This document shows, piece by piece, positions 385-19,054 of a DNA stretch of 64,000 bases. Every line of letters starts with the position of its first letter. The first letter of the stretch is position 1. Source of the stretch: Caulobacteraceae bacterium (GTDB lineage Bacteria; Pseudomonadota; Alphaproteobacteria; Caulobacterales; Caulobacteraceae). Location of the stretch: assembly GCA_947475875.1 (NCBI GenBank), contig CANJME010000011.1, positions 1 to 64,000 on the forward strand. Reading direction: 5' to 3'. A program made the position numbers and the translations under genes. The notes under the pieces were generated by a model. The model ran no database searches and was not told the DNA's origin. It saw only the letters and a list, made by a program, of their open reading frames with translations.

Positions 385-2670
385 ATGAAATTCGCGCTTG
401 CGGCTGCGGCCGTTGGAGGCCTGGCCGGCCTAGTCGGCCTTTCCCTGGTTTCGGCATCCCTGGCCCAGCCAGCGGCGCCGAATGGTCAGGCGCTGTTCAA
501 CGGCGTCTGTTCGGGCTGTCACACCAAGGAAGATCGCGCCGACTTCTCGCAAGCTGAACTCGTCGCCACCATGACCAGCGGCGCCATGTCCCCGATGGCC
601 CAGGGCGCAAACGGCGGCCGCGGCTGGTCGCCGGCCGAGATCCAGGCCGTTGCCAATTACATCAAGGGCGTGACCCCGCCGGCGCCGGCAGCAGCGCCTG
701 CAGGCGCGCCGGCAGATGGCGCCAACGCGACAGGGACGCCCGGCGGACGCGCCGGCGCGCCGGCGGGCGGCCGGGCCGGAGCAGCGGGGCGCGGCGGAGC
801 ATCAGCCGGCGGAGCGGCCGCTGCCGCGGGTGGAGCCGCGGCCGCCGGCGGACGCGGGGGCGGCGCCCCCTCCCAGGCCAAGCCCGGCTATGTCCAGCCG
901 CCCGAAAATTCCGCCGGCCTCTACCCCACCGCCGGCGAAGGGCCCTATCAACAGCGTTGCGCGACCTGCCATGGAACGGGCGTGGGCGGCGCGCCACCCT
1001 ATTCCACCCTCGAAAAAATGAGCCCCGAAGCGGTCTACGCCGCGCTGAAACCGGGCGGCAAGATGGCCGGCAACGCCACGGGCCTGAACGACAACGTGCT
1101 CTACGGCATCACCCGCTACATCACCGGCAAGTCGCCAACACCGAACAGTCTGGCTGGCGTCAACGACAAGACCTGCACCACCACGCCGGCCATCCGCAAC
1201 GCGCCCGCCGCCCAGCAATGGAATGGCAACGGCAAGGAAGTCACTCAAACTCGCTATCAGCCGAACCCGGGCTTTACCGCCGAGCAGGTGCCCAATCTGA
1301 AGGTCAAGTGGGCCTTCTCCTATCCGGGCACCAAGAATTCGGCCCCGGTGATCTGGGGCGACCGCGTTTTCGTGGCGAGCATGGGCGGCCACGCCTATTC
1401 GCTCGATACCAAGACCGGCTGCGTGCACTGGCGCTATGACTGGGGCGGCGGCACTCGCGCCACCATGTCAGTCGGCCCTCTGGCTTCGGCGCCGAGCAAG
1501 TTCGCCCTGTTCATCGGCGACGACCGCGCCTGGGTCCGGGCGCTGGACGCGGGCTCGGGCCGTGAACTGTGGAAAGTGCAGGTCGACACGCACAAGGTCG
1601 GCCGTATCACCGGCTCGCCGACCCTCTATGACAATGTCCTCTACGCGACCCTGTCCTACGCCGAGGAAAGTCAGGGCAATGTGGCGACCTATCCCTGCTG
1701 CACCGGTATCGGCAAGGTCGTCGCCGTCGACGTCCGCACCGGGCGCATCCTGTGGTCGAACAATGTGCTGGGCAATGTGACACCGCAGCCGACCCGCCGC
1801 AATATGGCGGGCACCCAGATGTACGGTCCCGCCGGCGGGGCGATCTGGTCGGCGCCGGCCATCGACGCCAAGCGTGGACAGCTCTACGTCGCCACCGGCG
1901 ATTCCTACACCGAGGTCAATCACCCGGCCTCGGACGCTGTCGTCGCCATGGATCTGAAGACCGGCCGCATCAAATGGACCAAGCAGGTGCTGGCCAACGA
2001 CAACTTCATGTCGGGCACTGTCAACGGGCCCACCGGCACGCGCGGCCCGGATTACGACTTCGGGCAGTCGCCCGTGCTGGTGAAAGTCGGCAATCGCGAC
2101 ATTCTGATCGCCGCCAACAAGTCTTCGGTCATCTACGGCATGAACCCCGACACCGGCGAGTACGTCTGGCCGGAAAGCTCGATGCAGAAATACGGCATCG
2201 GCGGCGCCAGCGGCGGGTTCATGTGGGGCTCTGCCACGGACGGGGTGCGCTTCTACGCAACCTCGAACGACGCGCCCGGCCGGGGCAAACCGGGGATCGT
2301 CGCGGTCGATGTCAACGATGGACACCTGCTGTGGCGCTATGACTCGCAAGCGGTCCCGACCTGCACCGCCTGGTCCGGCCAGTGCAGCCAGGGCTATGCG
2401 GCAGCGGCGACCGCCATTCCCGGCGCCGTCTTCGCGCCTGGCAAGGACGGACACTTAAGGGCCTTCGCGGCCGCCGACGGCAAAATGATCTGGGATTACG
2501 ACACCGCCCAGCAGGTCGACACCGTCAACGGTCTCAAGGGCCAGTGGGGCGGCACCCTCGACATGGGCGGGGCGACCGTCGCCGGCGGCCAGCTGTTCAT
2601 TCACTCCGGCTACGGCGGCACCGCCGGACCCCGGAACCTGCTGCTGGCGTTCTCGGTGGACGGCAAGTAG
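385..2670 (+). CDS. Secreted two-heme quinoprotein (PQQ) dehydrogenase, polyvinyl-alcohol-dehydrogenase type
   Basis: 761 residues. A Sec signal peptide (about 1-27) is followed by two cytochrome c heme motifs, CSGCH (42-46) and CATCH (192-196). A Gly/Ala/Arg-rich linker (about 100-165) separates them. From about 275 to the end is an eight-bladed PQQ beta-propeller with repeated W-docking-type strands, including an adjacent Cys pair (438-439) in a CCTGIG setting. This matches the PVA dehydrogenase (cytochrome) family, which oxidises secondary alcohols in the periplasm and passes electrons to cytochrome c. Usual family members carry one heme domain; here two are present. AGGAGG lies 8-9 bases before the ATG. 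The actual substrate cannot be read from sequence. Downstream, on the opposite strand, lie an exported esterase and a second exported protein. Confidence 0.8.
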   Translation: MKFALAAAAVGGLAGLVGLSLVSASLAQPAAPNGQALFNGVCSGCHTKEDRADFSQAELVATMTSGAMSPMAQGANGGRGWSPAEIQAVANYIKGVTPPAPAAAPAGAPADGANATGTPGGRAGAPAGGRAGAAGRGGASAGGAAAAAGGAAAAGGRGGGAPSQAKPGYVQPPENSAGLYPTAGEGPYQQRCATCHGTGVGGAPPYSTLEKMSPEAVYAALKPGGKMAGNATGLNDNVLYGITRYITGKSPTPNSLAGVNDKTCTTTPAIRNAPAAQQWNGNGKEVTQTRYQPNPGFTAEQVPNLKVKWAFSYPGTKNSAPVIWGDRVFVASMGGHAYSLDTKTGCVHWRYDWGGGTRATMSVGPLASAPSKFALFIGDDRAWVRALDAGSGRELWKVQVDTHKVGRITGSPTLYDNVLYATLSYAEESQGNVATYPCCTGIGKVVAVDVRTGRILWSNNVLGNVTPQPTRRNMAGTQMYGPAGGAIWSAPAIDAKRGQLYVATGDSYTEVNHPASDAVVAMDLKTGRIKWTKQVLANDNFMSGTVNGPTGTRGPDYDFGQSPVLVKVGNRDILIAANKSSVIYGMNPDTGEYVWPESSMQKYGIGGASGGFMWGSATDGVRFYATSNDAPGRGKPGIVAVDVNDGHLLWRYDSQAVPTCTAWSGQCSQGYAAAATAIPGAVFAPGKDGHLRAFAAADGKMIWDYDTAQQVDTVNGLKGQWGGTLDMGGATVAGGQLFIHSGYGGTAGPRNLLLAFSVDGK

Positions 2671-2684
2671 CGCTCAAGCAGCGA

Positions 2685-2705
2685 GCCCCGGACTTGATCC
2701 GGGGC
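2685..2705. repeat. REP-like hairpin, copy A
   Basis: Perfect 8-bp stem (GCCCCGGA/TCCGGGGC) around CTTGA, just after the dehydrogenase stop. The 13-bp core CGGACTTGATCCG recurs in reverse orientation at 6174-6194. Confidence 0.7.
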
Positions 2706-2732
2706 GAACGTTAGCGCGAACTAAAATGCCCG

Positions 2733-2907
2733 CCTGCGCGCGCCTCAGCGCGCAGGGAAATAAGTACACGGAGATCACGGAGGAGACACGGAGCACACAG
2801 AGAGTCTGAGCATGCTCGGACAACTCCGTGATCTCCGTGCATGCCTTCGGGCTTGCCCGAAGGCCGGTGATCTCTGTGCACCTATTTCCGCCGCGCCGAA
2901 GGCGCGG
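2733..2907. repeat. Compound palindromic intergenic element
   Basis: This gap between two convergent genes is built of nested inverted repeats. A CCTGCGCGC/GCGCGCAGG hairpin lies at 2733-2756. A perfect 16-bp inverted repeat, CACGGAGATCACGGAG, lies at 2767-2782 and its complement at 2824-2839. A 10-bp stem, GCCTTCGGGC/GCCCGAAGGC, lies at 2843-2864. A degenerate third arm (GTGATCTCTGTG) starts at 2867, and a CCGCGCC-GAA-GGCGCGG hairpin lies at 2891-2907, directly beside the stop codon of the leftward gene, where it could act as its terminator. No coding signal is visible. The CTCCGTG/CTCTGTG octamer style is seen in dispersed repeats of unrelated bacteria. Confidence 0.7.
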
Positions 2908-2908
2908 G

Positions 2909-4012
2909 TTACCGCGCCGCGGACTTGCCCTGTGCGGCGGCTCTCTCGGCTTCTCTTGCGCCGGCGAGGACGTTTTCCAGGCCATAGTTGCCCTCGTGGC
3001 AGGCGTACTCGAACAGGCCCCCGCCTTGGGTCGGATAGAATTCGTATTCCCCGCCCCAGGATGTCGCCCACACCGTCGGGTCATCGATCGTGAACTGATA
3101 GAGCAGCCGATCGCGGCCGACGCGGGTGAACTTCTCAGTCAGCTTGAGGTTGCCGTCCGAGCCCTGGAAGCTGGTCGACGGGTGGTAGTTGGTGGTCTCG
3201 ACCACGAGGGTGTCGCCTTCCCAGTGGCCGATGGAATCGCCGAACCAGGGCTTCACACCGTCCGTGCGGTGCTTGCCGCCGATGCGCACGATACGCACGT
3301 CGTGGACCATCTCCAGCCAGATAGCGACCGAGTCCTTGCCCTGTACGATGCGGATATTGTTGTTGTAATAGCCGTTCGGCAGCATCGGCCCAGCGGTATT
3401 GCCGAAGGCCAGGCACCGCTCGGCCGCCGGCCGCAGTTCGGGATTGTCCATGGCCCCGGCGCGCTGGACAGCGTTCTCGCCGGCGGCGTCGTCTGCCTCG
3501 CGCTGGGCCTGGGCGGCCCGGCCGGCCCCGCCGCCGGCTTTGGGGATCGCCGGCGGAATGCGGCCGTTGGCGGTGGTGGTGATGAACGAGGTGCGCGGCT
3601 CGCCGCCCACCCGCATGACATTGGTGGTCAGATCCTTCCAGCCGGCGTTATAGCCGCAGTCTCTACCCGCCGCGCCTGACCCCCCCTTGGTGGTCGGGTT
3701 GCAGTTTTTGTTGGTGGTGTCCTCGGCGCCGATGGTGACGGGGGTGGGACGGTTTTCGTAGGTCGCCTTGTCCTGGGCCTTGCCTTCCGCCGAGCGGACT
3801 TCGTCAGGCGTCATCACCTTGCGATCGCCGTACTGCGGCGAGCGCTGCAGCGGCGTGATCGTCACGTTGGTCCAGGTGCCCTGGATGTCGGCGACACCGA
3901 AGGCGGTGCGCGGAGCCTTGTACCGGGCCGGAGCCTGCGCGGCGCTGACGCCGGAGAACGCGACGGAAATGACCGCGACGCTGCAGATCGAAGCGAGCAG
4001 ACTGGACTTCAT
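2909..4012 (-). CDS. Secreted protein of unknown function (GHWEGDTLVVETTN / YACHEGN family)
   Basis: 367 residues from an ATG at 4012, with GGGAGAG upstream. An in-frame opening extends further upstream but gives an unlikely low-complexity extension, and the chosen start begins a clear signal peptide (about 1-25, ending SAAQA). The body carries GHWEGDTLVVETTN, a FTIDDP segment and a C-terminal YACHEGNYGLENVLAGAR block. I recognise these as hallmarks of a large uncharacterised family, common in Acidobacteria and sphingomonads, with no assigned reaction. Residues about 175-215 are Gly/Ala/Arg/Gln-rich. It is 125 bp from, and co-directional with, the upstream esterase, so the two may be cotranscribed. 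Confidence 0.75.
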   Translation of the reverse strand: MKSSLLASICSVAVISVAFSGVSAAQAPARYKAPRTAFGVADIQGTWTNVTITPLQRSPQYGDRKVMTPDEVRSAEGKAQDKATYENRPTPVTIGAEDTTNKNCNPTTKGGSGAAGRDCGYNAGWKDLTTNVMRVGGEPRTSFITTTANGRIPPAIPKAGGGAGRAAQAQREADDAAGENAVQRAGAMDNPELRPAAERCLAFGNTAGPMLPNGYYNNNIRIVQGKDSVAIWLEMVHDVRIVRIGGKHRTDGVKPWFGDSIGHWEGDTLVVETTNYHPSTSFQGSDGNLKLTEKFTRVGRDRLLYQFTIDDPTVWATSWGGEYEFYPTQGGGLFEYACHEGNYGLENVLAGAREAERAAAQGKSAAR

Positions 4013-4137
4013 AACGCACTCTCCCTTGAGCGCGCCGGCCGCGAAACGAGAGGCCCGCGTGCCGGCCCTGGTTTGGTTCCAGCCTGCAGCATACCCCGAG
4101 TTCGCGGTTTGGGTAGCGCCAATCGCCCTCGCGGCTC

Positions 4138-5730
4138 TTAGGTGTGCGGCTGGCTCTCGGTGAAGTTCAACAGGGCGTCCTGCATCTTGGTGGTGACGCG
4201 CGGGCCTGAGTTGCTGAACTCCAGCAGGTTGTCGTTGGCAACATTGTACTTGTCCCACTGCGGCCCGCCCGCTGCGCCCGGGTTCAGGTACTTGGCGAAC
4301 GAGGCCCAATAGGCGTTCATCGTCTGGGCCGTGGCCAGGTCCTCGCCCGCGTAGCCCCGGTTCGAGTTGAACACATAGGGGATGTCGGCGGCGTGGCGGG
4401 CGCCGCGAACGCCGGCGGCAATGCGGGCGGCCGGGGCCTCATAGGAGAAGTAGTACAGCCAGATCGGCTTGCCCTGGCGGGTTTGCAGGCGCGCGACGTT
4501 GCGGTTCGGCTCGGTCATGCGAAGCACGGTCCAGTAGTCGTTGATCAGCTGGGCGTCGGAGAGGCGGTTCGCCGGATTGAACACCTGCGCCATGCGGGCC
4601 CGGTTCGGCACCTCGTTCAGCGCGGCCGGCAGGCTGTTTTGCATGTTGTAGAGGCTGGCGTCGTTGGAATTGCCGCCGATCATGACCGCGACCTTGGCGT
4701 CGCCCTTTTCAAAGCCTTCGGTGATGCCATAGCGGATCGATTTGCCGTCCACCGTCGGATAGGCGCGGGTGTTATCGAAATAGCCCTGGCTGGCCGGGAA
4801 GGCGGTCAGCGGCAGGCGGCGCAGGGCGGCGGCGGCGGCGGCCGTATCGCCGGTCACGCCGGCGGCGGAGGCGGCGCGCGCCGAATAGGCGTCGATGGCG
4901 GCGCGGTTGCCCGGCACGTTTCGCGGGAAGCCCGACTGCGATATGGCGCCGCGGAAAAGCCCGCGCGCTTCCGGCGAGATGACGAGATAGAGCACGGACA
5001 CAGCGCCGGCGGATTCGCCGAAGATGGTGACCTTGGCCGGATCGCCGCCGAACGCGCCGATGTTGGACTGCACCCACTTCAGCGAGGCGATCTGGTCGAG
5101 CAGGCCGAAGTTGGCCGGCTGGCCTTCCTTGGTCAGGGCCGGGTGCGAGAACCAGCCGGCTCTGCCCAGGCGATAGTTGATGGTGACGACGACGATGCCC
5201 TGTTTGACAAAGCGGGTGCCGTCATAGGCCGAGCCCTGGCCGGAGGTGAACGAGCCGCCGTGGATATAGACCATCACCGGCAACTTATCGCCGGGCTTGG
5301 CGCCCTCGGGCTTTTGTACATTGAGATAGAGGCAGTCTTCGTTGGGCGCGGCGCAGCCGCCGCCCGGCTCGAAGGCGTCACGCACGCCAGTCCATTTGGC
5401 GGCCGGCGCCGGCGGCTTCCAGCGCAGGTCGACGACCGGCGGGGCGGCATAGGGAATGCCCTGGAAACGGGCGACCTCGTCGATGATCACGCCGCGCAGC
5501 TCGCCCGTCGAGATCTTGACGTTCTGCTTGGCCATGGTGGTGTAGTCCACCGGCGGAGCAGCCGCCCGTCCGCCTCCACGACCCGCAGGCGCCCCGCCCC
5601 GAGCCGGCGCGCCGGCCGCCGCGCCCGCGCCGCCCCGGCCGCTGGCCGGGGGTTGCGACATCGCCGCGGTTGAAAGGCTGATGATCGATACGGCTGTCGC
5701 CGCGACGAGCAGGATGCGTTTGACGGACAT
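4138..5730 (-). CDS. Secreted type B carboxylesterase
   Basis: 530 residues, alpha/beta-hydrolase fold. A signal peptide (about 1-25) and a Gly/Ala/Arg linker (26-60) precede the esterase domain. Visible motifs are EDCLYLNV (131-138), the oxyanion HGGSF (157-161), the nucleophile GESAG with Ser240, and a catalytic His446 in RHAADIPYVF. The acid that is Glu in most members appears to be Asp357 (GGNSNDASL). It hydrolyses carboxylic esters; the natural substrate is unknown. GGGGAG lies about 10 bases before the ATG. The linker resembles the one in the quinoprotein dehydrogenase at 385-2670, which hints that the exported enzymes work together, but this is inference. Confidence 0.88.
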   Translation of the reverse strand: MSVKRILLVAATAVSIISLSTAAMSQPPASGRGGAGAAAGAPARGGAPAGRGGGRAAAPPVDYTTMAKQNVKISTGELRGVIIDEVARFQGIPYAAPPVVDLRWKPPAPAAKWTGVRDAFEPGGGCAAPNEDCLYLNVQKPEGAKPGDKLPVMVYIHGGSFTSGQGSAYDGTRFVKQGIVVVTINYRLGRAGWFSHPALTKEGQPANFGLLDQIASLKWVQSNIGAFGGDPAKVTIFGESAGAVSVLYLVISPEARGLFRGAISQSGFPRNVPGNRAAIDAYSARAASAAGVTGDTAAAAAALRRLPLTAFPASQGYFDNTRAYPTVDGKSIRYGITEGFEKGDAKVAVMIGGNSNDASLYNMQNSLPAALNEVPNRARMAQVFNPANRLSDAQLINDYWTVLRMTEPNRNVARLQTRQGKPIWLYYFSYEAPAARIAAGVRGARHAADIPYVFNSNRGYAGEDLATAQTMNAYWASFAKYLNPGAAGGPQWDKYNVANDNLLEFSNSGPRVTTKMQDALLNFTESQPHT

Positions 5731-6244: not shown

Positions 6245-8395
6245 CTACGCCTCCGCGTCTTCCCGGTCCCGTTTGGCCGGCGCGATCTCTTCGCCGGTTT
6301 CCTGGTCGACGACCTTCATCGAGAGCTTGGTCTTGCCGCGATCGTCGAAGCCGATGAGCTTCACTTTCACGATCTGGCCTTCGGTCAGCACGTCCGAGGG
6401 CTTGGCGACCCGTTCATTGCTGATCTGGCTGACGTGAACCAAACCATCCTTGGCGCCGAAGAAGTTCACGAAAGCGCCGAAATCGACGACCTTCACGACC
6501 TTGCCTTCATAGATGGCGCCGATTTCCGGCTCGCTGGTCAGGCTCTTGATCCAGTCGATCGCCGCCTTGATCTTGTTGAGGTCTGCCGCGGCCACCTTGA
6601 TCAGGCCTTCGTCGTTGACGTCGACCTTGGCGCCGGTGGTGGCGACGATCTCGCGGATCACCTTGCCGCCGGTGCCGATGACGTCGCGGATCTTGTCCAC
6701 GGGAATCTGGATGGTCTCGATCCGCGGGGCGAATTCGCCGACTTCGGGGCGGGCGCCGTCGATGGCCTTGGCCATTTCACCGAGGATGTGAAGACGGCCG
6801 GCTTTCGCCTGCTCGAGCGCCTTCTTCATGATCTCCTCGTTGATGCCGGCGATCTTGATGTCCATTTGCAGCGAGGTGATGCCGTCTTCAGTGCCGGCGA
6901 CCTTGAAGTCCATGTCGCCGAGGTGGTCTTCGTCACCGAGGATATCCGAGAGCACAACGTAGCCGTCCGGCTCCAGGATCAGGCCCATGGCGATGCCGGA
7001 AACGGGCTTGGCCAGCGGCACGCCCGCATCCATCAGGGCCAGCGACGAGCCGCACACAGTGGCCATCGAGGACGAGCCATTGGACTCGGTAATCTCGGAG
7101 ACCAGGCGGATCGTGTAGGGGAAGTCTTCCTTGGCTGGCAGCATCGGACGGATGGCCCGCCAGGCGAGCTTGCCGTGGCCGATTTCGCGGCGGCCGGCGC
7201 CGCCCATACGGCCGGTTTCGCCGACGCTGTAGGGAGGGAAGTTGTAGTGCAGCAGGAAGGCCTCCTTGTAGGTGCCTTCCAGGCTGTCGATGTACTGCTC
7301 GTCCTCGCCGGTGCCGAGGGTGGCGACCACGAGCGCTTGCGTTTCACCGCGGGTGAACAGGGCCGAGCCGTGGGTGCGGGGCAGGACGCCGACTTCCGAG
7401 ACGATGTCGCGGACCTTGTCGAGGGCGCGGCCGTCGATGCGCTTTTTCGTCTTCAAAACGTCGCGGCGCAGGACGGAAGCTTCCACTTCCTTGAAGGCGT
7501 AACCGAGCTTGGGGGCCTCGATGCCGTGCGGGTTGGCCTCCGACAGGCCGAGATCTTCAAACATCCGCTTCTTGGCGGCGCCGACGGCGGCGTGGCGCTC
7601 GGTTTTGCCCTTGATCTTGTAAGCCGCCTTCACGTCCTCACCGACCAGCTTGGTGATCTTGTCGATGTAGGGGGACAGATCCTCCGGTTCGAACTCGCGC
7701 GGCTCCTTGGCCGAGTGTTCGGCCAGTTCGATGATCGCGTCGATCACCGGCTGGAAGCCGCGGTGGGCGAACATGACGCCGCCCAGCACTTCGTCTTCCG
7801 ACAGTTCGCGGATTTCCGATTCCACCATCATGACGGCGTCGGCGGTGCCGGCGACGACCAGGTCCATGCGGTTTTCGCCGTCGTGGACCTGCTCGAGGGT
7901 CGGGTTGAGGATGTATTCGCCATTGATGAAGCCGACGCGCGCGGCGCCGATCGGGCCCATGAAGGGCACGCCCGAGAGCGTCAGGGCTGCCGAGGCCGCC
8001 ACCAGGGCGACGATATCGGGATCATTTTCCTGATCGTGGGAGAGCACGGTGCAGACGACCTGCGTCTCGTGCTTGTAGCCCTTGACGAACAGCGGGCGGA
8101 TCGGACGGTCGATCAGGCGGGAAACCAGGGTTTCCTTTTCGGTCGGACGGCCTTCGCGCTTGAAATAGCCGCCGGGGATCTTGCCCGCGGCGAAGGTCTT
8201 TTCCTGGTAGTTGACGGTCAGGGGGAAGAAGTCGAGGCCGGGTTTCGGAGCGTGCTCCGAAACGACGGTGGCCAGGACCGTGGTCTCGCCGTAGGTGACC
8301 AGCACAGCGCCATCGGCTTGCCGCGCGACTCGGCCGGTTTCGAAGGTGAGCTTGCGGCCGCCCCAATCGACGGACTTGCGTTTGATATCGAACAT
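6245..8395 (-). CDS. pnp: Polyribonucleotide nucleotidyltransferase (PNPase)
   Basis: 716 residues from the ATG at 8395 ([13 protein letters not shown]). It degrades RNA 3'-5' phosphorolytically and is a core subunit of the degradosome. The order is two RNase PH domains separated by a helical domain, then a KH domain with the GxxG loop [11 protein letters not shown] (about 555-565), then an S1 domain near 620-690 ending in a charged tail. Length matches the family. It is the last gene of the leftward rpsO-pnp unit, and a long leader separates it from rpsO. A terminator lies at 6115-6138. Confidence 0.97.
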
Positions 8396-8617
8396 TTTGG
8401 GTTTTTCTTTCTCATTATCCCCGGGGCGTATTCCCTCGGGGGGCGGACAGGGGCGGGCTTTTTCAGGGCTACCGGTGGTCCTCTCCAAACGACAGACGGG
8501 ATGAGGACTGCTTTTGAGCCCTCGCGAACATACAGGCCAATCTGGCCTTAGATGACCCACCGGTTCCGGTCTGTCGCGGAACAGGTGGGGTTTGCCCCAA
8601 TGAGCGGGGCGGAATGC
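8396..8617 (-). promoter_or_regulatory. rpsO-pnp intergenic leader
   Basis: 222 bp without a gene. It contains several inverted repeats: GCCCC/GGGGC right after rpsO, GGCCAGATTGGCC, and an 8-bp long-range pair ACCGGTGG (near 8472) with CCACCGGT (near 8556). In enterobacteria the equivalent leader is cut by RNase III and bound by PNPase for autoregulation. A similar role here is inference from position and structure only. Confidence 0.4.
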
Positions 8618-16773: not shown

Positions 16774-17910
16774 ATGATCATCCAGCGGCGGCATTTTTTG
16801 ATCGGCGGGGCGGCGGCGGGGCTGCTCCCGGGCGCCGTCCGAGCGCAGGACCCCGCGCCAAAGCCGCCGGCCCCACGCACCGCCTTTGACTTCACCGACG
16901 GCAAGATCCGCGTGCCCGTCCGCGTGAAGGGGATCGACGTCAGCGCGGTGCTGGATTCCGGCGGCCAGTATCACGCAATGGACAAGGGCCTGGCCCAGAC
17001 CCTCGGCATCGCGCTCTATGACAAGGTCAGCCTTTCGACCCTGTCGGGGAGTGTCTCCGGCCGGCTGAGCGATCCGGTCGACATCGTCGTCGCGGGGCAG
17101 AGCCTGAACCAGTCGCAGTTCGTGGTGCTCGATCTTTCCCGCCTGTCGCAAAGCGTCGGCCGACCGGTCGACCTGATCATCGGCGGACCCGTCTTCCGGC
17201 GCTTCGACGTCGATATCGACTTTGCCGGCAAGACCCTGGCGATCATGCCGCCCAACGACTACGAACTGCCGGAAAACGGCTCCATGGCCCCGCTCAAGGC
17301 CGCGACGCGCGGCATGACGGTCGAGGTTATCCTGCCGGTCGGCTCGGTGCAGGCAACCGTCGATACCGGCTCGGAAGCCTGCCTGACGTTTAGCCCGGCC
17401 GCGGCCCAGCGGCTGGGTGTGCTGAAGGGCGGACCGGTTTCCACCGCCCTGATCGGGGGTCTGGCTGGAAGCAAGGTCGGACAGGTCAGCAGCATCCGGG
17501 ACATCCTGATAAGCGGCCAGGAATTCAAGGACTTGCCGATTGTCGTGGCGCCGCGCGAGTTCGGAGCCGATGCGGTGCTGGGCTGCGGGGTGCTCTCGCA
17601 TTGCCGCGTCGCGTTTGATTTCCCGGGCGACTGGCTGATCCTGTCGGAGCGGGCCGAGCGGCCCTTCCGCCGCGACCTGACCGGCCTGCAGGCTTCGCCC
17701 CAAGGCGAAGTGCTCAAGGTGACCCACGTGGCCAAAGGCGGTCCGGCCGAAAAGGCGGGGTTCCGCACCGGCGAGAGGATCACCGCCATCAATGGCGAGC
17801 CGGCCGTGGCCGCCAACGCGCGCCTGACCGGCGCCGCAGCCGCAACCGCGGTCAGCTTTACGCTCCAGGGCGGCAAGACCCGGGCCCTGACGCTGGCGCG
17901 CTACTACTAG
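16774..17910 (+). CDS. Exported aspartic-protease-like protein with PDZ domain (copy 1)
   Basis: 378 residues. The N-terminus [13 protein letters not shown] fits a twin-arginine (Tat) signal. Two retropepsin-like halves follow, each with a catalytic-type motif: DSGG at 61-64 and DTGS at 197-200. A PDZ domain follows (about 310-365, [21 protein letters not shown]). Clan AA proteases with DTG/DSG normally dimerise or, as here, use two halves; the Gly in DSGG in place of DSGA/T is unusual. Likely periplasmic, substrate unknown. A paralogue follows after 19 bp and the pair is probably cotranscribed. Confidence 0.82.
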
Positions 17911-17929
17911 GACCCCTAAGCTCAAGGTC

Positions 17930-19054
17930 ATGCAGCCCACCCGGCGAATGATCATGGCGAGCGGCCCGGCGGCGTTTCTGGCGCCCTCCGCCTTCGCGCA
18001 GAATAGAGCGGCCCGCTCGCCGGGCGTCGCCAGCGCCGGCGTCTTCACGGCCGTGACGGTGAATGGCCAGGTGGTGCAGGGATTGCTGGATTCCGGCGCC
18101 ACCGAACACGCCATGGATGCGGGGCTGGCGCGCACCTTAGGGATCCGCGCCACGGGCCGGCGGGTGAACACCCTGGGGATCGGAGGAGTGTCACGGGGAT
18201 TCTACAGCGACCTGGTTGACCTGTTGATCGGCGGACGGATGTTCGCGCGCAGCACGGTGGCCATCCTCGATCTTTCCGATTTGTCCAATCGGCTGGGCCA
18301 GCCGGTGCAGATGCTGTTGGGGCGGCCGCTCTTCAACGCCATGACCGTCGAGATGGATTTCCGTCTTCGCACGGCGCGCCTGTGGGAGCGGCTGCGCTTT
18401 ACCGAGCCAACGGACGCCACGGCGGTCAAGCTGAGCGGCATCATGGGTCTGATGACCGCGCCGGTCACCCTGCCGGGCGGGGTGGTCTATGCGGCGGTGG
18501 ACACCGGGACCATGCCGGGTCTGGTGGTCTCGCCGCGCGGCGCCGAGCGACTGGGCCTGCTCAAGGACGAGAGCAAGGTGTCGACGACCCTGCTGGGCGG
18601 CGTCGCCGGCGTCAGTGAAGGGAGGATCACCAGCGCGGCGAGCCTCAAGCTGGCGGACAAGACCTTCGAGGATGTGCCGGTGCGCATCTCGCCGCGGCCG
18701 GTTGGACCGGAAGCCGTGCTGGGCCTGGAGCTGCTCTCGCGCTTCCACCTGCATCTCGACCTGGGCTACCAGCGGATGTGGATGCGGGCGGACGGTCCGC
18801 AGCTGCCCTTTCAGCACGATCTGCTGGGTCTGTTCGGCGATCCCACCCCGCAGGGCCTGAAGGTGACCCACGTGGCGCGGGGCAGTCCGGCGGAAAAGGC
18901 GGGCCTGATGGCCGGTGATCTGATCGTGCGCATCAACGGCCGGCCCTCAGTTGGCGTCGACGTCAGCATCGTCAATGCCGAGCCGGGATTTCCGATGACC
19001 TTCATCCTGGCCGACGGCGCCCGGCGGATGGCGAGCCTGGCGCGGTACTATTAG
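17930..19054 (+). CDS. Exported aspartic-protease-like protein with PDZ domain (copy 2)
   Basis: 374 residues, a tandem paralogue of the preceding gene with the same architecture. It has a signal with a twin-arginine (TRRMIMAS), DSGA at 54-57, DTGT at 191-194, a PDZ domain near 315-350 (GSPAEKAGLMAGDLIVRING), and the same C-terminal LARYY. AAGG lies 5-8 bases before the ATG. Periplasmic protein turnover or signalling is plausible but not shown. The first motif is more canonical than in copy 1 and the second less so. Confidence 0.82.
   Translation: MQPTRRMIMASGPAAFLAPSAFAQNRAARSPGVASAGVFTAVTVNGQVVQGLLDSGATEHAMDAGLARTLGIRATGRRVNTLGIGGVSRGFYSDLVDLLIGGRMFARSTVAILDLSDLSNRLGQPVQMLLGRPLFNAMTVEMDFRLRTARLWERLRFTEPTDATAVKLSGIMGLMTAPVTLPGGVVYAAVDTGTMPGLVVSPRGAERLGLLKDESKVSTTLLGGVAGVSEGRITSAASLKLADKTFEDVPVRISPRPVGPEAVLGLELLSRFHLHLDLGYQRMWMRADGPQLPFQHDLLGLFGDPTPQGLKVTHVARGSPAEKAGLMAGDLIVRINGRPSVGVDVSIVNAEPGFPMTFILADGARRMASLARYY

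Follow-up and report, generated by a model that had tools for sequence, protein, structure and literature searches.

A recurrently amplified exported protein family beside PVADH-type quinohaemoprotein dehydrogenases: a possible substrate-handling partner in periplasmic oxidation

Near the start of the 64,000-nucleotide stretch of Caulobacteraceae bacterium DNA analysed here (assembly GCA_947475875.1, contig CANJME010000011.1, positions 1 to 64,000; the window), three genes for exported proteins lie together: a polyvinyl alcohol dehydrogenase (PVADH)-type quinohaemoprotein of 761 aa (385..2670, + strand), a protein without a modelled family (2909..4012, − strand) and a carboxylesterase (4138..5730, − strand). 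All three were present where a preliminary description of this DNA had placed them, and the novelty lies in the second one, which that description had left without a family and whose family is called UEF below. We tentatively propose, giving it somewhat less than even chances, that this is a periplasmic oxidation locus in which UEF is the substrate-handling partner of the PVADH-type dehydrogenase. The proposal rests on co-occurrence and adjacency, and we infer its chemistry. The exported dehydrogenase would oxidise secondary alcohol groups of a putative substrate, and the electrons would pass over its canonical haem and an added N-terminal haem to the respiratory chain. The UEF barrel may bind, present or further convert hydrophobic substrates or products, and the esterase, if it serves the same pathway, would release alcohols from esters.

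Co-occurrence was assessed in the 36 genomes covered by both searches, with thresholds of E ≤ 1e-50 for the dehydrogenase and E ≤ 1e-3 for UEF: UEF was present in 9/9 genomes with the dehydrogenase and in 3 of the 27 without it (Fisher P 2.3e-6), and when one genome per genus was retained within the family, the proportions were 7/7 and 3/13 (P 0.003). In the window's family, 5/38 dehydrogenase genes lay within 1.5 kb of a UEF gene against 1.36 expected (P 0.011), and 4/37 without the window pair (P 0.04). Within 3 kb, the corresponding values were 7/38 against 2.0 expected (P 0.003) and 6/37 (P 0.012), and counting two neighbouring dehydrogenases of C6 once gave 5/36 (P 0.04). These family counts of co-occurrence and adjacency leave out G010 and G019, which hold three dehydrogenases. 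The second, independent adjacency set consisted of 19 other genomes that had been picked for holding UEF, with the expectation taken from their own UEF density; here, 8 of the 57 dehydrogenases were found within 500 bp of a UEF gene, where 0.35 were expected (Poisson P 4e-9). Collapsing five divergent pairs from four Steroidobacteraceae genomes (family looked up for two of the four) to one left 4 (P 5e-4). Some of the loci stop at contig ends, and the neighbour counts there are lower bounds.

The pairs are convergent in the window, L169 and L261, divergent in L205, L206, L209, L211 and L215, and in tandem with UEF first in L118 and L159 or with the dehydrogenase first in L184 and L235. These four different arrangements argue for repeated association rather than for one inherited pair.

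The window UEF (367 aa from the ATG at 4012) was without a match in Pfam up to E 10, in NCBIfam at 0.001 and among PDB sequences at E 1. For the 102 UEF members scanned, no Pfam match was better than E 0.028 and no NCBIfam match better than 0.0095, and the families hit were unrelated to one another. As far as the families listed in Pfam, NCBIfam and the PDB go, a known family for UEF was thus rejected, the sequence searches having given nothing convincing, and the preliminary description was right in this respect. Published work on the family was not found in a search limited by UEF having no published name known to us.

This 2.85-Mb genome holds 25 copies of UEF and two contig-end fragments. 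Eight of these genes stand in tandem on one strand (L048 2939-13496, on a 17-kb contig); the array is flanked by genes resembling a short-chain dehydrogenase and thiolases. Relatives occur in Caulobacteraceae, Phenylobacterium, Steroidobacter, Povalibacter, other Gammaproteobacteria and Acidobacteriota. At least 477 pattern matches among the 592 matches listed encode a UEF relative, and 80 were kept as loci; 19 of the genomes concerned have from 3 to 84 UEF profile matches each, 425 in total with fragments counted. At the same time, UEF matches were found in 2 of the 142 genomes drawn from the class at E ≤ 1e-20, this genome included, and 16 genomes out of 60 close relatives had one at E ≤ 1e-3. 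A quick tree built from 184 UEF members groups the window copy with a single counterpart in each of the congeners G001 and G002 (SH-aLRT 67). The other copies of this genome also group mostly with congener copies, so that the expansion for the most part predates the species. Additionally, in other genomes (L090, L094, L102, L118 and more) the gene preceding UEF is often a UEF-like one of greater divergence, about 260–330 codons long, which perhaps encodes a second subunit; 25 of 129 UEF-like open reading frames score below 150 bits.

In the structural model of UEF (pLDDT 84.7, pTM 0.84), a single early strand is followed later by eight more. Foldseek placed fatty-acid-binding proteins (FABPs) and retinoid-binding proteins first, with E values from 1.4e-3 upwards and no match at E ≤ 0.001. 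A second aligner gave its best Z of 9.4 (root-mean-square deviation 3.2, 117 aligned residues) to FABP5 (4azq), slightly above the 7 to 8 that is usual for the best Z of this aligner. The model is likely, if tentatively, a calycin/FABP-like meander barrel preceded by a long insertion. The invariant residues of the family include R174, C175, E209, E310, C313 and E315 (model numbering), with 175 and 313 as the two invariant cysteines, and the invariant or near-invariant polar residues are R174, E209, H212, D213, R215, E310, H314, E315 and N317. Such a set of polar residues would suit an enzyme acting on the oxidised product, that is, an analogue of oxidised-PVA hydrolase lacking sequence relationship to it, and UEF would indeed stand beside the dehydrogenase where the Sphingopyxis PVA locus has the hydrolase. 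We nevertheless consider an enzyme unlikely: a known active site was not recognised, the two invariant cysteines of an exported protein may form a disulphide, and calycin barrels are mostly ligand binders.

The Pfam scan of the dehydrogenase gave a pyrroloquinoline quinone (PQQ) propeller and two Cytochrome_CBB3 stretches; the PQQ-type beta-propeller was well above the cut-off of PF01011 (E 1.3e-27, 97.3 bits against 26.7). The protein was aligned with its relatives in a set of 73 sequences, made up of 10 of the 13 matches of this genome, 60 sequences from other genomes, the Sphingopyxis protein and the best matches of G001 and G002. According to this alignment, the second CxxCH, CATCH at residues 192-196 (958..972, + strand), is the canonical haem motif of the family, and the first, CSGCH at residues 42-46 (508..522, + strand; motif and domain comparison), is extra. 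C192, C195, H196 and M227, the last being the conserved methionine that goes with the canonical motif, are each conserved in 96% of the sequences, the propeller residue Asp556 in 99%, and the adjacent cysteines 438-439 (1696..1701, + strand) in 73/73. With the adjacent cysteines and the aspartate kept, the window protein is expected from its sequence to be a working quinoprotein.

The preliminary description had called this protein a two-haem PVADH-type quinoprotein and its second haem notable for a family in which one is usual. The propeller, the relationship to the Sphingopyxis protein and the CxxCH motifs at residues 42 and 192 bear out the first statement, and the alignment the second, as two or more CxxCH motifs occur in only 2 of the 73 sequences, the window protein and its G001 orthologue; the best G002 match (62% identity) has a single haem. 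With two motifs, the protein lies outside the strict definition of a PVA dehydrogenase by a single haem domain. Its first haem domain shares 56% identity with that of the paralogue at L053 7857-10001, and its second 47% with that of the paralogue at L061 6321-8450. The simplest account would be that an L053-like N-terminus became fused to an L061-like enzyme. A further paralogue, at G000 C21:41745-43547, has four in-frame stops in the matched stretch and so looks decayed.

Several observations weigh against UEF as the substrate-handling partner of this dehydrogenase. The barrel assignment by Foldseek is weak, its best match having a TM score of 0.21 by query length. In this genome, 2 of the 25 UEF copy sites (C11 and C6) adjoin such a dehydrogenase. 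Among 63 dehydrogenases (57 of 59 matched rows, two G068 rows being left out, and six from the window's family), 52 have no UEF within 3 kb. No dehydrogenase match at E ≤ 1e-30 was obtained in G076, which has more UEF matches (84) than any other genome, and a single one in G074, where UEF matches number 65. In three genomes, UEF occurs and the dehydrogenase does not. Among 132 UEF neighbours, a count with no background control from which proteins longer than 1300 aa or with undetermined residues were left out, DUF6152 is the commonest Pfam family (13/132), PQQ accounting for 3/132 and the esterase family for 2/132. Moreover, related genomes are not independent, and the dehydrogenases here may depend on outside PQQ or lack it, since the search of this genome for PqqE, made without a positive control, gave at best 49 bits where the cut-off is 381; 14/14 control genomes were also below the cut-off. 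The position of most UEF genes away from the dehydrogenase, the counts in G076 and G074 and the DUF6152 neighbours indicate that the role of UEF probably extends beyond this dehydrogenase or concerns oxidation more broadly.

The sole match of this genome to the PqqE profile lies at C3:18233-18742 (L264), so that a genome with 13 PQQ-type dehydrogenase matches may be unable to make PQQ itself. DUF6644 neighbours UEF in 4/132 cases, with DUF6152 for example at L094 7244-7849 and L100 7031-7504, and the two beside UEF suggest a wider module of uncharacterised function; neither was identified in the window locus. In this genome, a DUF6152 gene (L062 5139-5531) has a dehydrogenase paralogue in its vicinity. 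The literature search gave no paper naming DUF6152 or DUF6644.

The PqqE result bears also on the idea that UEF carries a cofactor, PQQ or haem, and not substrates. Scavenging of PQQ would be possible where PqqE above the cut-off is not found, and UEF does co-occur with PVADH-type quinoproteins. The idea is improbable, however, given the missing positive control of that search and the 84 UEF matches of G076 beside no PVADH-type match at E ≤ 1e-30; tens of diverged paralogues per genome also fit ligand diversity better than one cofactor.

A wider view, which we hold to be doubtful, is that the UEF proteins of Caulobacteraceae, Steroidobacteraceae, other Gammaproteobacteria and Acidobacteriota are recurrently amplified, exported calycin-like barrels that would form a diversified substrate repertoire for periplasmic quinohaemoprotein oxidation, each paralogue for one alcohol or ketone class, with the two-haem dehydrogenase as a wired-up variant. 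If UEF is indeed the partner of PVADH-type dehydrogenases, a first role would be gained for a family that lacks a model in Pfam and NCBIfam although small genomes can carry tens of copies. Such a role would also give a pointer to the substrates, perhaps synthetic polymers among them, of a large group of periplasmic oxidations that are uncharacterised. The partnership is directly testable in cultured Steroidobacteraceae, which have the divergent UEF-dehydrogenase pairs.

The third member of the set, the carboxylesterase of 530 aa, passes the curated cut-off of PF00135 by a wide margin (E 1.5e-96, 324.8 bits against 27) and has the serine-hydrolase motif GESAG, as read in the translation. Its family is common, with matches at E ≤ 1e-50 in 26 of 36 related genomes and eight places in this genome. 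The expectation that the three genes are neighbours elsewhere was borne out in part: in G001 the three orthologues occupy a stretch of about 9 kb and are ordered differently, but the best matches in G002 are spread over three contigs. The G001 esterase is 165 bp from the dehydrogenase, convergent with it, and just outside the UEF locus L069. None of the 80 UEF loci held both other partners (by dehydrogenase and esterase queries), and none of the 60 dehydrogenase loci held both esterase and UEF, 3/60 holding an esterase. The conserved trio was therefore set aside as being found only in this genome and G001 among the genomes examined; an Acidobacteria genome has a looser set (L133), in which a PQQ dehydrogenase of a different kind accompanies esterase and UEF. 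In G001, a DUF6351 tannase-like gene lies between the dehydrogenase and UEF orthologues, and a gene for a PQQ-dehydrogenase-like protein with a CxxCH near its C-terminus (L149 11780-14170) flanks the other side of the UEF orthologue.

It may then be asked whether the three genes are chance neighbours, that is, exported proteins of families abundant in this genome that share no pathway. With 13 dehydrogenase matches at E ≤ 1e-50, 25 UEF copies and eight esterase places in one genome, chance contacts are likely, and the altered order in G001, the scattering in G002 and the 57 of 60 dehydrogenase loci without an esterase all agree with such an explanation. We regard it as rather unlikely for the set as a whole, since the adjacency of UEF and dehydrogenase exceeds expectation in other genomes, also with related pairs collapsed. 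This argument does not rescue the esterase: its membership in the same pathway is unproven, and chance placement is a fair reading for it.

The preliminary description had also pointed to Gly/Ala/Arg-rich linkers in the dehydrogenase (residues 100-165; 682..879, + strand) and the esterase (residues 26-60 at 5551..5655, − strand, or 26-62 when delimited more widely) as a sign of recent exchange or joint evolution. The linkers are present in both proteins, but they are not specific to them. Among 265 called genes of at least 150 aa, taken from the window and 20 regions of this genome chosen around the dehydrogenase, esterase and UEF families, similar linkers were found in 18, namely in 16 of the 107 genes for which a crude signal peptide was called and in 2 of the 158 others; the carriers comprise seven dehydrogenases, three esterases, four UEFs and four others. 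The linker DNA of the dehydrogenase and esterase did score highest of the 19 pairs compared (z 3.39), a score reached by 5 of 1000 codon shuffles, but the next pair, with a UEF linker, came close behind (3.23). Exchange between these two genes was therefore set aside as a specific signal; judged by sequence, the linkers read as shared low complexity, with common origin or exchange possible.

As to the layout, the dehydrogenase gene is convergent with the UEF and esterase genes, a point absent from the preliminary description. With the dehydrogenase on the opposite strand, the trio is not one operon; the esterase and UEF genes could be co-transcribed. The open frame of UEF extends back to 4309, and the start was set at the ATG at 4012 because a signal-peptide-like segment begins there. 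The trio is adjoined by pnp (6248-8560, − strand; identified by reading), which likewise adjoins the esterase in G001 (L149). The gap between the dehydrogenase and UEF (2671-2908) holds a dispersed repeat with inverted parts; L067 and L058 contain copies about 82-83% identical over about 150 bp, and L050 contains shorter copies. Elsewhere in the window (16774-19051), two adjacent exported genes resemble retropepsin-type aspartic proteases by eye; retropepsin-type domains also occur among the UEF neighbours (2/132).

Compared with known systems, the esterase is ordinary: its full domain is like that of the carboxylic ester hydrolase 8wdm (E 3.2e-66) and the fumonisin B1 esterase 8s6d (7.8e-60), and only the N-terminal low-complexity linker differs from the PF00135 examples. 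UEF in its model shares the meander barrel with the fatty-acid- and retinol-binding proteins, but unlike them it is exported, about three times as long and provided with the long insertion, and it has no match to a PDB sequence at the threshold given above. DUF6152 and DUF6644 resemble UEF in being uncharacterised families, themselves UEF neighbours, and differ in being unrelated to it by the Pfam scan.

The nearest characterised setting is that of PVA degradation, and the preliminary description had suggested an attack of the set on an oxygenated polymer. A PVADH-type dehydrogenase beside an exported esterase would be in keeping with a locus for the degradation of polyvinyl alcohol or a similar polymer, as would two UEF-dehydrogenase pairs (L205 and L206) in Povalibacter uvarum, which is reportedly a PVA degrader. 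Such a locus is nonetheless very improbable here, for the 13 diverged dehydrogenase matches suggest many substrates and oxidised-PVA hydrolase gave no match in this genome, in a search that had no positive control; on this result the polymer suggestion gained no support and the reading as a PVA operon was set aside.

The best plasmid match of the dehydrogenase was the protein of Sphingopyxis sp. 113P3 (NZ_CP009453.1), with 36.9% identity over residues 188-761. The direct neighbour of the Sphingopyxis protein matches the oxidised-PVA hydrolase structure 3wla (E 3.5e-189), and a major facilitator superfamily transporter and a c-type cytochrome follow in that locus. The genome paper for this strain (PMC4611681) describes a pva operon sequence on the chromosome, whereas the locus compared here is on the plasmid record. 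The UEF profile found nothing on the Sphingopyxis locus and only two weak matches, both in Novosphingobium, in the plasmid collection. The window protein and the Sphingopyxis protein are alike in the PQQ-type propeller, the canonical haem, the pair of adjacent cysteines and most of the conserved positions listed. They differ in that the window protein adds a second, N-terminal haem and the Gly/Ala/Arg linker to the one haem of the Sphingopyxis enzyme, and in their neighbours, which are UEF and a carboxylesterase in the window and an oxidised-PVA hydrolase in Sphingopyxis.

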